This document shows, in pieces, positions 3,855 to 9,459 of a stretch of DNA of 56,776 nucleotides. The stretch is from Saccharomonospora azurea NA-128. GTDB taxonomy: Bacteria > Actinomycetota > Actinomycetes > Mycobacteriales > Pseudonocardiaceae. A model generated the notes under the pieces. That model ran no database searches. It saw only the letters and a program-made list of their open reading frames with translations, and was not told where the DNA came from. The position numbers were made by a program, and so were the translations under genes. The stretch spans positions 3,886,912 to 3,943,687 of the forward strand of contig NZ_CM001466.1 in assembly GCF_000231055.2 (NCBI RefSeq), read 5' to 3'. The first letter of the stretch is position 1. Every line of letters starts with the position of its first letter.

Positions 3855-4523
3855 ATGACGCCTGTCCGCTCCAGCACCATTGCCGACCTCCTGCGCCGTA
3901 GTGCGGCCCGCCATCCCGACCGTCTCGCCGTGCGGTTCGAGAGTCGGGAGTGGACGTACGCGGAGCTGGACACGGCCGTGACCCGCGCCGCCGCGCACCT
4001 GCTCGGTCTCGGGCTGGAGCACGGCGACCGCGTGGCCGCCTACGGCAGGAACTCCGACGCCTTTCTGATCGGGTTCCTCGCGTGCGCGCGGGCGGGTCTC
4101 GTGCACGTGCCCGTGAACTACAACCTCACCGGCGAGGAGCTGGCCTACCTGGTGGAGCAGTCCCGCAGCCGGGCGGTGCTCACCGATCCCGCCCTCGCCG
4201 AGCAGCTGGCTGCCGCCACGACAGCACCGGAGCACGTGCTGGCGCTGCGCGACGCCGACGGCAGCCTCCTCGACGCCGCCCGCGAGGGCGAGCTTCCCGA
4301 GCTGGACGTCGAGGTGTCCGACACCGACCTCGCCCAGCTGCTCTACACCTCTGGCACCACGTCCCGGCCCAAGGGCGCGATGATGACCCACCGGGCGCTG
4401 GTGCACGAGTACCTGTCGTGCATCGCGGGTCTCGACCTCACCGCCGACGACGCGCCGCTGCACGTCATGCCGCTCTACCACAGCGCTCAGCTGCATGATT
4501 GTCACACCAAAGCACATACCTGA
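3855..4523 (+). pseudogene. acyl-CoA synthetase, 5' part, interrupted by island
   Basis: N-terminal about 214 residues of an AMP-binding acyl-CoA ligase, starting ATG 3855 after CCGGAGGA. It carries the adenylation P-loop YTSGTTSRPKGAMMTH (about residue 167) and then runs into MPLYHSAQLH. The homology stops at about 4495 and the frame ends eight codons later. The missing half, with the next expected residues (LMPWLAVGATN), is found 4.1 kb away at 8596. The gene is therefore split by inserted DNA, not merely truncated. The 5' part alone lacks the C-terminal catalytic lysine domain and would not be an active ligase. The family is fatty-acyl-CoA ligase (FadD-like); the substrate is unknown. Confidence 0.9.
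4481..4495 (+). repeat. 15-bp direct repeat at left island junction (att-like)
   Basis: CAGCGCTCAGCTGCA encodes H-S-A-Q-L-H of the interrupted ligase. It recurs with one mismatch at 8570-8584, at the other junction. A near-identical direct repeat flanking an insertion is what integrase-mediated recombination or a long target duplication would leave. No recombinase gene is visible between the copies, so the mechanism is inferred. Confidence 0.6.
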
Positions 4524-4913
4524 CCCAGGCGGTTTCCAGCTCTAACGCGAGGTCCGGACACCGGGCGCGTCCAGGTCGGGTGGGAGACTGTCATCTGGGC
4601 GATGAGGTGCCGTAGCAGGTAGCGGCGGCCATATACCGGCAGTATGTCCCAGTCTGCGGCGAGGGACACGGCGGCTTCCACAGGTGGGCGGATGTTGCGG
4701 TTGGCGTCGGCTTGGCTGTGGAGTTGGTGGTCCTTGCCGCGGTCATAGGCGACGGCTGCCGTGATACAGGTGAGTTGCTGACACCGCCGCCGGACCGGAT
4801 CAACAGCAAGGGCGTAGAGGCTGTTGATCCGGTCGTCGACAGCTGGCACTGCTGCCGAAGTCGTGGAATGGTCCTGTGACTGTCGCGGTTCCCACCGAGT
4901 CAAAAGAAGAAAG
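4524..4913. other. left arm of island, no confident gene
   Basis: 390 bp between the ligase stub and the membrane-protein stop. The minus strand stays open through most of it in one frame that is continuous past the 4914 gene region, but it has no start or motif I can support. The one clear structure is the long inverted repeat at 4793-4834. I see nothing else convincing here. Confidence 0.4.
4793..4834 (-). terminator. perfect 15-bp inverted repeat downstream of island operon
   Basis: GACCGGATCAACAGC (4793-4807) and its exact reverse complement GCTGTTGATCCGGTC (4820-4834) are separated by 12 nt. It lies 80 nt past the stop of the last island gene on the minus strand, so a terminator role is likely. 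There is no following U-run, so it could instead be an element end or recombination site. Confidence 0.5.
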
Positions 4914-5678
4914 TTATTCCAAACAGTGTATGGAGAGCAGGTAGGGGAAGTCACCGAAGTTGTGGTCGCGGCTGCCTTTGATATCGAGGATCGCGAGCTC
5001 CGCGCGGCGGGGTGTCGTGATGTCGGGTTGCAGGCACGCCGGCTTGCCGTCATTGCGCTGGGCGCCGGTGTGATCGATCCAAAACCTACTGTGGAGTGGG
5101 TAAGTCTGAGGGGGGCCGTCGGTGCCATCTTCGACGAACACAAAGCTCGTTCCGTCGTCGGAATGCGACACCACGGCTCCTCGGACCAGGCGAGGAAGCG
5201 CATCGTCGGTCGGGATGACGGCAGCGATCGCCACCGCGCTACCCACACCGGCAGCCGCGACGCTGATGATTACCCATGCCGGCATGGTGATGGTTTTGCG
5301 GAAGAACGGTGACTTGGACTTCCGTTCCGATTCTGACCCGTCGAGCTCGGGCTTGGCGGCGGGCGGCCGTTCTCTGTTGCGAAGGGCCGCGCCGATCAGC
5401 ACGGCTAGTCCAACTGCCTCGGCCAGCGGCAGAAGTTGCATTCCTGCTTCGTAGAGCTTGCCGAGGACATGCCGGGAGGGCTGAGTCGGAAGGACGAAAC
5501 CGGCGCCCCAGAGGAGCCACAGGAGGTTCGTGGTGACCAGGATGACGCTCCCGGTGCCGACCAACCACACCGTGGGTCGCGTCAGCTTCCTGGCTGCCAG
5601 CAGTGTGAGGACGAGACCCGCGGCCGGGACGAGGGTGATCAACCCCTGCGTGATGAGTGTCGAGTAGTCGGGCTGCAT
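4914..5678 (-). CDS. island membrane protein with C-terminal extracytoplasmic domain
   Basis: A 254-aa protein, third gene of the island operon. ATG 5678 is preceded by GGAG at good distance. Three hydrophobic segments occupy roughly residues 8-30, 36-62 and 80-100. They are followed by a charged cytoplasmic-looking linker (about 101-130, rich in Glu/Lys/Arg/Pro) and one more helix at about 134-157. A C-terminal domain of about 95 residues follows, containing two Cys (CLQ and the HCLE terminus) that could form a disulfide outside the membrane. No family is recognised. Only 34 nt separate it from the upstream lipoprotein gene, so it is probably co-transcribed with it and functionally linked at the cell surface. 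The lower GC marks it as acquired. Confidence 0.75.
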   Translation of the reverse strand: MQPDYSTLITQGLITLVPAAGLVLTLLAARKLTRPTVWLVGTGSVILVTTNLLWLLWGAGFVLPTQPSRHVLGKLYEAGMQLLPLAEAVGLAVLIGAALRNRERPPAAKPELDGSESERKSKSPFFRKTITMPAWVIISVAAAGVGSAVAIAAVIPTDDALPRLVRGAVVSHSDDGTSFVFVEDGTDGPPQTYPLHSRFWIDHTGAQRNDGKPACLQPDITTPRRAELAILDIKGSRDHNFGDFPYLLSIHCLE

Positions 5679-5712
5679 CGGATCTCCACGGTGGCAGGGA
5701 TTTGGGAAACGT

Positions 5713-7029
5713 TCACGGGGTGGCCGGATCTGTGTACTCGGTCAGACACTCGTCCAGCCCGGCGAACGAGGAGTGTGATCGCTGCGTGGATTCTACGAAC
5801 CGAACCCGGGTGGACGTGTCGGCGTAAGTCGATCGGACGAGCTTGCCAGGCGTCACGGTGTCCCTTGGCGATGTCACCACGCACATCGACGGAGCGAACT
5901 CGGGTTTCACTGGCGTGGCTGGCATGGCGTGACAAGGAGCCTGCCTGAGCCTGAGTATGTCGGTCACTGAGGTGACCTCTGTGGGAAGGGCTGGAACTTC
6001 CCCAGCGCTCGCGCAGGTCTCTTGCAGCTGAGCGAGGCTACCCGGCGAGATCGAGTCGCGTCCGTACCGCATCCACAGGCCGTCGGACAAACGGCCGATT
6101 TGGACAGTGTCGGTTCCGTCGAGGACGTGTGGCGAGATCTCATCGAAGGACTGGTCATTGATGTAGCCGAGGTCGACCACCGCCGAGTACTGGTCGAAGG
6201 CCATCACTGGCAGAGACCTGCCGGCGACGGCAGTAGGACTGACCGGGCGGATGCCCGCTTGCAGATCGGCCAGTGCGACGGCACGTTCGGCAATGAGCGT
6301 GGCTTGGTCGGTACCGACCGGGAACGGCCGTACCAGGATGGCCCAGTCCAACTTCGGTGCATCAAGGTATGTCAGGCGCACCGAGCCCCAGGAGTGACCG
6401 ATGAAGCCCTTCAAAGTGAGCCCATGGCGCGCGTTGATCGTCTCGATGAGCTTTTGGTAGGTCGGTGCGTCGAAGCCCCACCGCTGGGACGAGTCCGCCA
6501 GGCCACAGCGGCTGGCCATGTCCTTGGCGACGGTGTCGACGGTCGCGGATGCCTCGCGGGCGGCGAGGTAGTACCTGCTCTGCGCGTCCTGGCATTCGGT
6601 CGACACGGCCTGGGTGACCCAGGGTTCTTCCGGCACCACGATGTTGTACCGACTTTGCAGGGCCGGGAAGGCCGTGAGGAATGCGCTAAGACCCACTTCG
6701 CCTGAAAGCACGGAATGACCAGGTCCGCCGAAGTCGAGCACGACGGTGTCGGACGTCTTCTGAGTGGCGGGCAGGTAGGCGTAGCGCCAGATGCGCCCGT
6801 CGACCTCGATGTCCGTGCAGGGTTCCTTGGTCTTCTGCGCTTCGCAGGTCAGCCCGTCGAGAGCCGCTTCCTGTGTCGGGATGGGTGCGGGTTCGCCGTT
6901 GTCCGTCGTACACGCGGTAACGCTTGTGGCTGCCAGCAAGACCAGGGTTCCGAGGACGGCGCGGACGCCATGGCACCGCCACGGCGTCCGCGTATTCCGG
7001 GTAGTCCTCGTAAGAGAACTTCTCACCAT
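5713..7029 (-). CDS. lipoprotein alpha/beta-hydrolase, probably surface peptidase or esterase
   Basis: A 438-aa product. The N-terminus is basic, then hydrophobic, ending in a lipobox TSVTAC (Cys40), so it is predicted to be exported and lipid-anchored. The hydrolase fold shows an oxyanion-type GGPGH (residues 101-105), the nucleophile elbow GHSWGS (Ser213), an Asp candidate in TSPRDTVTP (Asp390) and the His candidate in QRSHSSFAG (His419). This order is that of TAP-like/prolyl-aminopeptidase-type secreted hydrolases of actinomycetes, but the substrate is not inferable. The ATG at 7029 overlaps the stop of the preceding secreted-protein gene by 7 nt, a strong sign of co-translation. Several Cys pairs fit an extracytoplasmic protein. 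Confidence 0.85.
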   Translation of the reverse strand: MVRSSLTRTTRNTRTPWRCHGVRAVLGTLVLLAATSVTACTTDNGEPAPIPTQEAALDGLTCEAQKTKEPCTDIEVDGRIWRYAYLPATQKTSDTVVLDFGGPGHSVLSGEVGLSAFLTAFPALQSRYNIVVPEEPWVTQAVSTECQDAQSRYYLAAREASATVDTVAKDMASRCGLADSSQRWGFDAPTYQKLIETINARHGLTLKGFIGHSWGSVRLTYLDAPKLDWAILVRPFPVGTDQATLIAERAVALADLQAGIRPVSPTAVAGRSLPVMAFDQYSAVVDLGYINDQSFDEISPHVLDGTDTVQIGRLSDGLWMRYGRDSISPGSLAQLQETCASAGEVPALPTEVTSVTDILRLRQAPCHAMPATPVKPEFAPSMCVVTSPRDTVTPGKLVRSTYADTSTRVRFVESTQRSHSSFAGLDECLTEYTDPATP

Positions 7030-8102
7030 CCGCTGTCAGCCTTTGCCCACGCCTCGGTGTTGCACATGGTCGGTGTGCACACTCGAACCTGCATGTAGTT
7101 GCGGTCCGCCCAGAACGGCAGAACGTACTGATCCACCGCGTCGTACTTGCCTGCGATGTCCATGTACATCTGTCCGTCACGTACACCGTCGAAGTCGATC
7201 GTCATCCGGTTTTGGGTGCCGATGCCAGCGTTGATGTTGAGCCAGTATTTGTCGCAGATGTTGATCGGCATCGTGACCGAACCGGATAACCCGCCCCAAG
7301 AGCCACCCACGGTGTAATTGCGGTTGCTGTCACAGGTACTGAGGGAATCGCCGTGGCGAGGCGCCCAGTCGGCCAACTGCTTGATCTTCCCTTCATGGCC
7401 CGTCCACGGCCGCGCCGAAACCTCCATGTCGACCGTTTCGGCGGTCACGCCCCAGATGTCTGATGGCGCCGGAGTCCACAGGGCCCAGCGGTTGTAGACG
7501 AAGATTGGAGTCTTGTCCAAGCCCCAGGCCTCGTAACAGGACACGATCTTGTGGTCGTAGTCGCTCGAATAGCTCGGGGCGAACCAGCCTGTCGAGCAGC
7601 CGTTGTCCTCCAGGTACATGTTGTCGATCCCGAATACCGCTGCGTACCCCGAGCCAGGCTGAGCCTCACGTGTGCGTTCGGTGGGCATTCCGGTGGTGTC
7701 GCCGCCGCCCATCTGCAGGCCGATGGCGATATTGTGCGCGTCACTGTTGGCAGTGTCTCTCCGGGAGTAGAGCAACTCGGTGGGTGCTTTGGGGCTGTCC
7801 CACACGAGAGTGATCGTCTCATCAGCGGAGTACGGATCCGCCACCTCGGCGACTCGTATCCGGCTCTCGTCGACGAGTCGTCCGTTGCGAGCGGCCTCAT
7901 CCAGGTGCTGTCTGACTCGCCCATGCGCTTCGGAATCCGCCGATGTCAGCGCGGTGGCCGAGCGGGAGGCCTCCTGTAGGGTCGCTTCGTCAAACCGCTC
8001 GATCCGCACCGTGTGCTGCGCGGCATCGACCGGAGTGGCATGGGCAGGCGCCCCTGCCACCAGCAAGCCGGTAATCGTCGAAGCCGCGACTACTGACAAC
8101 AC
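7023..8102 (-). CDS. secreted protein of unknown function, first gene of island operon
   Basis: A 359-aa product. A signal sequence (AASTITGLLVAGAPAHA) with a likely signal peptidase I site after AHA, about residue 22, points to secretion. The mature part is Trp/Tyr/Asp-rich with several Cys and has stretches such as GGSWGGLSG, suggesting a compact beta-rich extracellular domain. I recognise no family. The GTG start at 8102 is the first possible one after an in-frame stop upstream. It leaves a signal peptide with no basic N-region, which is unusual and may mean the true 5' end was lost or a different start is used. It overlaps the lipoprotein gene by 7 nt. Confidence 0.75.
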   Translation of the reverse strand: MLSVVAASTITGLLVAGAPAHATPVDAAQHTVRIERFDEATLQEASRSATALTSADSEAHGRVRQHLDEAARNGRLVDESRIRVAEVADPYSADETITLVWDSPKAPTELLYSRRDTANSDAHNIAIGLQMGGGDTTGMPTERTREAQPGSGYAAVFGIDNMYLEDNGCSTGWFAPSYSSDYDHKIVSCYEAWGLDKTPIFVYNRWALWTPAPSDIWGVTAETVDMEVSARPWTGHEGKIKQLADWAPRHGDSLSTCDSNRNYTVGGSWGGLSGSVTMPINICDKYWLNINAGIGTQNRMTIDFDGVRDGQMYMDIAGKYDAVDQYVLPFWADRNYMQVRVCTPTMCNTEAWAKADSGW

Positions 8103-8569
8103 AGCAACCTCGAGCGATCGGTGAGCGTGGTCTTGAAAAGATCAACACTTCCTCCACGGGCTCGAACTAATGGGGGCACGCATGGCTGCATGCGAGTGCG
8201 CGTCGGCGCCCCTGTCCCCCAGCACCTCCCTCAGGTGTTCTCACTGAAAGTAGTGAAGTAAAAGCGAACAGTGTTCCACCATTTGCGTTGAGGGTACACG
8301 CTTTCCTGTGATCATTCTCACGGTTGCCGCGTGAGTCAGCTGTATCTCCCTCCTTGCCCGATCGCCTCCCACTGCGACGAGTAGTGCTCTACCTGCTTAA
8401 GCACGAACACAACCGCACTCTCACGGAACGCACGTGATACCTCTTCCCGGCTATGATCCACATCCCCACTCAACGAGTGAGTTCTCCAGCAGACCGAGCG
8501 GTTCAGTGGCGCTGGTGTCGTGTGTGGGGTGGTCGTGGCGGGGATGCGATCGTTCACCGCGATCGCAGG
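8103..8569. other. island right arm: upstream region of the island operon
   Basis: About 467 bp with no supported gene; the open frames here do not look coding. It should hold the operon promoter. An imperfect 24-bp palindrome lies at 8176-8199 (GCACGCATGGCT facing GCATGCGAGTGC), placed where an operator could act, about 75-100 bp upstream of the first gene. A second inverted repeat (GCGATCG at 8546-8552 against CGATCGC at 8560-8566) sits next to the right junction and could be part of an attachment site. Confidence 0.4.
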
Positions 8570-8584
8570 CAGCGCCCAGCTGCA
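8570..8584 (+). repeat. 15-bp direct repeat at right island junction (att-like)
   Basis: CAGCGCCCAGCTGCA, one mismatch from 4481-4495. It again spells S-A-Q-L-H in frame 3, immediately before the resumed ligase sequence, and thus marks the right end of the inserted DNA. Confidence 0.6.
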
Positions 8585-9459
8585 CGTTTTCTTTGATGCC
8601 GTGGCTCGCCGTGGGCGCCACCAACACCGTGTTGGAGACACCCGACCCCACGGAGATCCTGCGCAGGCTCGAAGCCGACCGGCACGGCGCCTTCTTCGCC
8701 GCGCCCACGCTGTGGGTGGCGCTGGCCAACCACGCCGACTTCGCCCGGCGCGACCTGTCGACGCTGCGCAAGGCCTACTACGGCGCCTCGATCATGCCGG
8801 TGCCCGTGCTCGAACGGCTCCGCGAGGCGATGCCGCAGCTCGGCTTCTACAACTGCTTCGGACAGTCGGAGATCGCGCCGCTGGCCACCGTGCTGCGGCC
8901 CGAGGAGCACGACGCCCGACCCGACTCGGCCGGCAGGCCCGTGCTGTTCGTGGAGGCCCGGGTCGTCGACCCGGACGGCAACGACGTCGCGCCCGGGGAA
9001 CTCGGCGAGGTCGTGTACCGGTCGCCGCAGCTCGCCACCGGCTACTGGGACAAGCCGGAGGAGACGGAGGAGGCCTTCCGCGACGGCTGGTTCCACTCGG
9101 GCGACCTGGTGCGCCTCGACGAGGAGGGCTACCTCTACGTCGTCGACCGCATCAAGGACGTCATCAACACCGGGGGCGTGCTCGTGGCGTCGCGCGAGGT
9201 GGAAGACGCTCTCTACACGCATCCCGGGGTCGCCGAGGTCGCCGTCGTGGGGCTGCCGGACGACCGGTGGATCGAGGCGATCACCGCCGTCGTCGTGCCC
9301 AAGGGCGACGTGAGCGCCGACGAACTCCTCGCCCACGCCAAGGCGGCGCTGTCGAACTTCAAGGTGCCCAAGGCGGTGCACTTCGTCGACGACCTGCCCC
9401 GCAACGCCTCCGGCAAGATCCTCAAGCGGGAGCTGCGGCAGCGGCTCGCCGTGGGGTGA
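8585..9459 (+). pseudogene. acyl-CoA synthetase, 3' part
   Basis: C-terminal about 288 residues of the split ligase. Homology resumes at LMPWLAVGATN (ATG 8596) and runs through YNCFGQSE (A5-type motif), GYWDKPEET, the GWFHSGDLVRLDEEGY motif and the hinge/C-terminal domain. It ends with the catalytic-lysine motif ASGKILKRELR. Relative to the SAQLH frame of the repeat there is one extra base between 8586 and 8595, so simple recombination of the two 15-bp repeats would leave a +1 frameshift. An in-frame ATG at 8596 might allow production of an orphan C-terminal fragment, but no ribosome site is visible. Confidence 0.88.

Follow-up and report, generated by a model that had tools for sequence, protein, structure and literature searches.

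Do three adjacent genes for surface proteins in Saccharomonospora azurea NA-128 work as one unit, and what would such a unit do? The genes, here called A, B and C, lie on the minus strand of a stretch of 56,776 nucleotides (nt), hereafter the window (positions 3,886,912 to 3,943,687 of the forward strand of contig NZ_CM001466.1, RefSeq assembly GCF_000231055.2; Table 1). The original prediction, made from the sequence of the window, had described them as a secreted protein, a lipoprotein hydrolase and a membrane protein that might form a processing or defence module carried as an island passenger. We found that the cassette is real and is conserved as a pair, A and B, each of which scores below any family threshold. 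We tentatively propose, with confidence somewhat short of even, that A-B is a scattered actinomycete module in which B, a tethered hydrolase resembling tripeptidyl aminopeptidases (TAP-like), trims or activates the secreted protein A, with C or a kelch-repeat protein as an exchangeable partner on the membrane side.

Nine loci with A, that of the window included, were available for comparison. B followed A on the same strand in eight of the nine, and in the seven loci measured the spacing of the two genes was a 7-nt overlap, 101 nt, 34 nt, a 4-nt overlap, 23 nt, 3 nt and 3 nt. The complete order A-B-C was found again in two Actinokineospora loci, where A was 44% and C 36-38% identical to the window's proteins. 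A chance arrangement of the trio was rejected, since homologous trios in another genus keep order and strand; the neighbourhood search among actinomycetes that had been suggested as a check thus showed homologues of the three genes together elsewhere. The third position is variable: it is taken by C in 3/9 loci (the window and the two Actinokineospora), and by a kelch-repeat protein in 3/9 (Actinomadura soli and genomes G826 and G1012); neither was found in the other 3/9. Because of this exchange, and because the C-terminal domain of C also occurs alone elsewhere, we conclude that the A-B pair is the core module and C an exchangeable accessory. C as an essential part was rejected on the same grounds, a kelch protein standing in its place in other loci and its C-terminal domain standing alone in three other genomes. 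The three-gene surface module first envisaged therefore holds in part: an anchored hydrolase beside a secreted protein is conserved, but C does not belong to the core. The kelch proteins are membrane-bound and unrelated to C; all three exceeded the Pfam cut-off for PF24681 and carry an N-terminal membrane segment or a lipobox (by eye).

The occurrence of A and B side by side in distantly related bacteria suggests that they work jointly at the cell surface. Their pairwise identities rise and fall together (r 0.95 for 15 pairs from 6 loci), although shared ancestry alone would give a similar value. Between the two Actinokineospora, the ratio of nonsynonymous to synonymous substitution rates (dN/dS) was 0.21 for A, 0.18 for B and 0.39 for C, compared with 0.17 for a control, the neighbouring flavin adenine dinucleotide (FAD) monooxygenase. 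In this comparison purifying selection acts on A and B, and less strongly on C. Between their loci, L005 and L006, the synonymous rate (dS) was 0.29 for A and 0.44 for B, against 0.79 for the upstream FAD monooxygenase; the two species may thus have exchanged the pair more recently. Transposase genes interrupt the pair in two relatives, one of IS66 type within B of L010 (10720-12123) and one of DDE type within A of L020 (9853-11232), so the pair seems dispensable at times.

B is the member of the pair for which a function can be suggested. All seven B proteins have a hydrophobic N-terminus (by hydropathy in the window, by eye in the others). In the window this segment ends in a lipobox-like motif, whose Cys40 is not conserved; five relatives have an uncleaved-looking hydrophobic N-terminus instead (by eye). 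Eight cysteines are invariant in 7/7 B proteins, as are the motifs and the predicted Ser-Asp-His residues given in Table 1. No significant NCBIfam or PDB sequence match was found for B, and we placed it by profile comparison. When an alignment of 20 TAP-like proteins was compared with the seven B proteins by hhalign, the score was 54.7 (P 4.8e-6, probability 86%) over 368 columns, with the catalytic residues in register; the best of 40 column-shuffled controls run in this direction scored 24.5. The 20 proteins came from the window's genome and its relatives, after 11 of 31 loci had been dropped for lack of an open reading frame (ORF) of 380-720 amino acids (aa) bearing both motifs at the expected place. 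On this evidence B probably works like a TAP-like serine hydrolase. We regard it as a remote, diverged relative of the TAP-like family (PF08386 group) rather than a member, because none of the seven unsplit B proteins reached the Pfam gathering score of any family, Abhydrolase included.

A is by its sequence an orphan family of cysteine-containing proteins, presumably secreted, with one hydrophobic N-terminal segment (hydropathy and sequence reading). No Pfam match was found for 8/8 A proteins scanned, nor any in NCBIfam or PADLOC; the best PHROGs match had an E-value of 0.37, and the A profile gave no significant match among PDB sequences, so that A adds a protein family. The eight sequences compared share 24 invariant residues, including Cys169, Cys189, Cys257 and Cys283, and conservation extends along the full length, to a D-x-G-W motif at or near the C-terminus, with no sign of polymorphism. 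A further motif, [RK]-x-G-[RN]-L around Gly74, is present in 7/8 A sequences, that of locus L068 departing from it; that it serves as a processing site is speculation. C likewise had no Pfam or NCBIfam match above cut-off. The statement that two of the three products lack a recognisable family was therefore too modest, as all three fall below these cut-offs and B is placed only by profile comparison. The expectation that all three act outside the cytoplasmic membrane agrees with their predicted export character, given the N-terminal segment of A, the lipobox-like N-terminus of B and the four hydrophobic segments of C.

In the mechanism that we favour, A would be exported across the membrane, and B, held at the membrane, would act on A as it leaves the cell. 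B would be active as a peptidase and would trim or activate A, while C, or the kelch protein in other loci, might position the pair as an exchangeable membrane partner or holder. The processing role originally suggested is plausible by analogy, because B resembles TAP-like hydrolases and Hip1, a studied member of that group, cleaves a protein near its N-terminus (PMC4022732). A diverged TAP-like hydrolase kept beside one secreted gene offers a ready enzyme-partner pair for testing. A wider generalization is possible, though we consider it doubtful: that such loci represent a family, so far unrecognised, of gene pairs dedicated to maturation outside the cytoplasm, each a secreted protein of new fold with its own tethered, strongly diverged TAP-like protease and interchangeable membrane partners (a four-segment protein or a kelch propeller), spread among actinomycetes by small elements.

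Several observations weigh against this mechanism, in addition to the failure of B to reach any Pfam threshold. The TAP-like set was chosen by its GGPG-like and GxSxG motifs, and agreement in these motifs is thus partly built in. The hhalign probability was only 86% in the first direction and 51% in the reverse (B against TAP-like, P 1.6e-4), and when B was first compared with just two TAP-like sequences the match fell short of significance (E 0.055). Searches with hmmsearch, in sets that were very small, gave mixed results: the B profile matched the 20 TAP-like proteins at 1.2e-5 at best and most of them above 0.01, and the TAP profile matched B proteins at 0.0017 to 0.34. For A, the signal peptide read from the GTG at 8102 contains no Lys or Arg, in contrast to 7/7 relatives examined. 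Just upstream, at 8155-8143, a longer ribosome-binding sequence, GGAGG, is found with an Arg-rich start in a different frame from A, and a shorter GAGG precedes the GTG itself. The start of A in the window is accordingly doubtful, and the explanation may be an unusual start site, a frameshift or an error of sequencing. Finally, the lone exception to A-B pairing is L068, an A-like gene found by profile and 25% identical to A of L019, which has no B in its 14.5-kb locus.

The pairing and the parallel divergence of A and B could also be explained if A regulated B, as a secreted inhibitor, chaperone or targeting subunit that checks B or brings it to a cell-wall substrate. That A comes first in gene order and is conserved throughout fits a folded partner no less than a substrate. 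However, A matches no known inhibitor family, and the L068 gene has no B nearby; we consider this explanation rather unlikely, without dismissing it.

The enzymes to which B is likened raise another alternative. The TAP-like protein L042 of the same genome matched solved structures named Hip1, carboxylesterase A, TnmK2 and secreted hydrolase, and the carboxylesterase names among these relatives are a further point against a peptidase acting on A. These names, and that of secreted hydrolase, would be in keeping with a secreted enzyme system for a peptide, ester or glycan from outside the cell, which A would bind and B hydrolyse, with C or the kelch protein holding it or passing it on. The FAD monooxygenase lies upstream of the trio in both Actinokineospora loci, and kelch propellers often bind ligands or proteins. 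Apart from the monooxygenase, however, no recurrent transporter or catabolic gene was seen beside the pair in the loci read (by eye, with no systematic scan), and A has no known carbohydrate-binding domain in Pfam. A system of this kind is in our estimate unlikely.

The A-B module is rare and scattered among actinomycetes. With B as a single-sequence query, 3/297 genomes of the family were matched, and with A, 3/397 genomes of the order; the B profile matched 6/394 genomes of the class (own genome included in all three counts). The A profile matched 5/200 genomes in the family of G826 and 2/16 Actinokineospora genomes, and among 296 genomes of the phylum it found only the window's own. These counts include weak matches that were then dropped, namely G406 (partial) for the A query, G709, G710 and G901 for the B profile and G1084 for the A profile in the family of G826; all were short, with E-values of 3e-4 to 9e-4. 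Elsewhere in the genus, 11 genomes gave no match to B; some of them are only 82-91% complete. A pattern scan of GTDB contigs with the A alignment gave two named loci, in Actinokineospora diospyrosa (treated as the same locus as G250) and Actinomadura soli, and a scan with B alone gave no match.

Such a sporadic distribution, together with the island location and the transposon-broken copies in relatives, would suit antagonism or defence, with A as an effector matured by B and C as self-protection, or with the whole set blocking phage adsorption at the surface. The kelch proteins also matched PHROG families (best 1.4e-7), one of them named virion structural (2.6e-6), probably via the repeat; these were the only phage-family matches below E 0.01, and we read them as reflecting the shared kelch repeat. 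However, a PADLOC search of 10 proteins gave no match, even with E-values up to 1 allowed. Neither A nor B matched anything in phage or plasmid collections, and viral contigs yielded no relative of either; on these searches, which covered A and B, we rejected the idea that the pair derives from a phage or plasmid. Nor did we find the layout of a polymorphic toxin with its immunity gene: A has no variable C-terminus in the eight sequences, and C is not tied to A-B, being absent from 6/9 A loci. The suggestion of a phage-defence or interbacterial role thus fared poorly, and we hold it to be very unlikely.

Besides its four hydrophobic segments, C has a C-terminal domain in which two cysteines are conserved. 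In 3/205 genomes of the order this domain was found alone, and neither A nor B lay in the surrounding 14.0, 13.5 and 5.2 kb. The stand-alone copies (L103 6907-7458, L104 6439-6852 and L105 4520-5053) are small proteins with one membrane span (by eye). The C protein of A. diospyrosa gave a sub-threshold heliorhodopsin-like match (Pfam E 0.014, NCBIfam E 0.029), which we take to be a chance similarity of membrane segments.

In the window, re-reading of the ORFs confirmed the three genes, in the order A-B-C on one strand, with a 7-nt overlap between A and B and a 34-nt gap between B and C. The trio looks like a single transcript because a strong hairpin follows C, with a predicted energy of -41.6 kcal/mol (z -5.6 for a 71-nt stretch) and no T run. 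A scan for sigma-70-type promoters found no match for A-B-C, a result that says little for an actinomycete.

How did the cassette reach this genome? It lies in an insert that splits a housekeeping-type gene of fat metabolism, that for an acyl-coenzyme A (acyl-CoA) synthetase, which supports the earlier suggestion of an island passenger. The G+C content (GC) of the insert is lower than that of all 224 other stretches of 4,074 bp, each of which has at least 0.677. Some match to the first half of the synthetase gene was found in 12/12 genomes of the genus (own genome included). An orthologue is present in seven same-genus genomes besides the window's own (77-87% identity), and in 7/7 the DNA is uninterrupted across the site, with an open frame of 516-549 aa spanning it in each; for L023, the script chose a long frame other than that of the synthetase gene. 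The 15-bp sequence that flanks the insert is single at all seven unsplit sites and doubled around the insert. In the window the second half of the synthetase gene is out of frame with the first at the junction, where small changes are also seen. The insert is present in one copy in its own genome. From its sequence, we conclude that the cassette was acquired horizontally.

Pfam revealed no integrase or transposase in A, B, C or 21 other ORFs of at least 60 aa that lie in or reach into the insert, and terminal inverted repeats were absent (13 of about 38 positions). A classical transposon was rejected for lack of both the inverted repeats and a transposase. We infer that the insert entered as a site-specific element, either one whose integrase has since been lost or one served in trans. 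Near the left end of the insert, a stretch of about 50 bp (4814-4864) is 80-84% similar to a portion of a gene carried by six genomes of the family; by its translation we take that gene to encode a CitE-like CoA-ester lyase. The stretch may be left over from another attachment site, or the similarity may be due to chance.

The absence of an integrase, the possibly shifted start of A and the transposon-split A or B of two relatives would also fit a cassette that, in this genome, is a decaying passenger without function, with intact copies elsewhere. The reading frames of B and C are intact, however, and B keeps its catalytic residues; we give such decay, which is compatible with the other explanations, a low probability.

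Table 1. Features of the cassette, its insert and the interrupted gene, in window coordinates
Feature	Position	Strand	Description
Gene A	7023..8102	minus	359 aa from the GTG start of the original prediction; predicted secreted protein, new family
Gene B	5713..7029	minus	438 aa; predicted membrane-tethered serine hydrolase, remote TAP-like (S33-type) relative
Lipobox-like VTAC of B (residues 37-40)	6910..6921	minus	closes the hydrophobic N-terminus; sequence reading
GGPG motif of B (residues 101-104)	6718..6729	minus	expected oxyanion-hole loop; invariant in 7/7 B proteins
GHSWG of B, predicted nucleophile Ser213	6385..6399	minus	GxSxG invariant in 7/7; aligns with TAP-like GYSYG
Predicted catalytic Asp390 of B	5860..5862	minus	invariant in 7/7; aligns with TAP-like D
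Predicted catalytic His419 of B	5773..5775	minus	invariant in 7/7; aligns with TAP-like H
Gene C	4914..5678	minus	254 aa; four-segment membrane protein, accessory third gene
C-terminal domain of C (about residues 155-254)	4917..5216	minus	probably extracytoplasmic
Hairpin, probable transcript end	4793..4834	minus	15-bp perfect stem, 80 nt past the C stop
Insert	4496..8569	none	4,074 bp; GC 0.626 against 0.707 in the rest of the window
Left copy of 15-bp direct repeat	4481..4495	plus	insert edge
Right copy of 15-bp direct repeat	8570..8584	plus	14/15 identical to the left copy
N-terminal half of split acyl-CoA synthetase gene	3855..4495	plus	AMP-binding profile positions 1-222
C-terminal half of split acyl-CoA synthetase gene	8585..9459	plus	AMP-binding 219-384 and AMP-binding_C

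Other genes were noted around the relatives of the cassette. In A. diospyrosa (L005 11070-17288), a secreted-looking protein of 2,072 aa with RHS/YD-like repeats (by eye) is convergent to the trio; the second Actinokineospora locus has another gene in that place. Two loci, L019 (5016-5921) and L068 (11349-12353), have near A a repeat protein that looks by eye like a beta-propeller lectin; that of L019 gave no Pfam match.

With respect to known systems, the insert resembles integrative elements that duplicate their attachment site, being flanked by a repeat that is single in the unsplit orthologues. It differs from them in that no integrase, transposase or terminal inverted repeats were found and in that the target gene is broken.

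The TAP-like hydrolases with which B was compared form the Pfam Abhydrolase_4 group, which includes TPP A, TPP B/SlpD and TPP C/SlpE of Streptomyces lividans and the mycobacterial Hip1 (carboxylesterase A). Hydrolases matching PF08386 were present in 26/26 genomes searched among the window's relatives, its own included. To our knowledge, few natural substrates of TAP-like envelope enzymes have been identified. Substrate knowledge has been described as "largely lacking" for the proteases discussed in an account of Hip1, a cell-envelope-associated enzyme with a Ser-Asp-His triad and 11 cysteines that cleaves GroEL2 near its N-terminus and resembles the mycelium-associated SlpD and SlpE of S. lividans (PMC4022732). 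In S. lividans, one secreted and one lipoprotein tripeptidyl-aminopeptidase-like protein have been reported, the lipoprotein being SLIV_12485 (PMC5994538). B shares with these hydrolases the GGPG and GxSxG motifs, predicted Ser-Asp-His residues in the same order, many cysteines and a profile alignment of 368 columns. It differs in being only 18-19% identical in that alignment and in having 438 residues, compared with 525-595 (stop to stop). B also adjoins a gene for a secreted protein, whereas no such operon partner appears in the excerpted text of PMC4022732 and PMC5994538, and no search was aimed at one.

A parallel to the logic proposed for A-B comes from the maturation of a secreted enzyme. 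The transglutaminase of Streptomyces mobaraensis is secreted as a pro-enzyme and trimmed by a tripeptidyl aminopeptidase. The likeness lies in a secreted protein that is trimmed extracellularly by a TAP-type enzyme, as A would be by B. In contrast to that system, A has no Pfam transglutaminase match, and B would be tethered at the membrane and is encoded beside its putative substrate.

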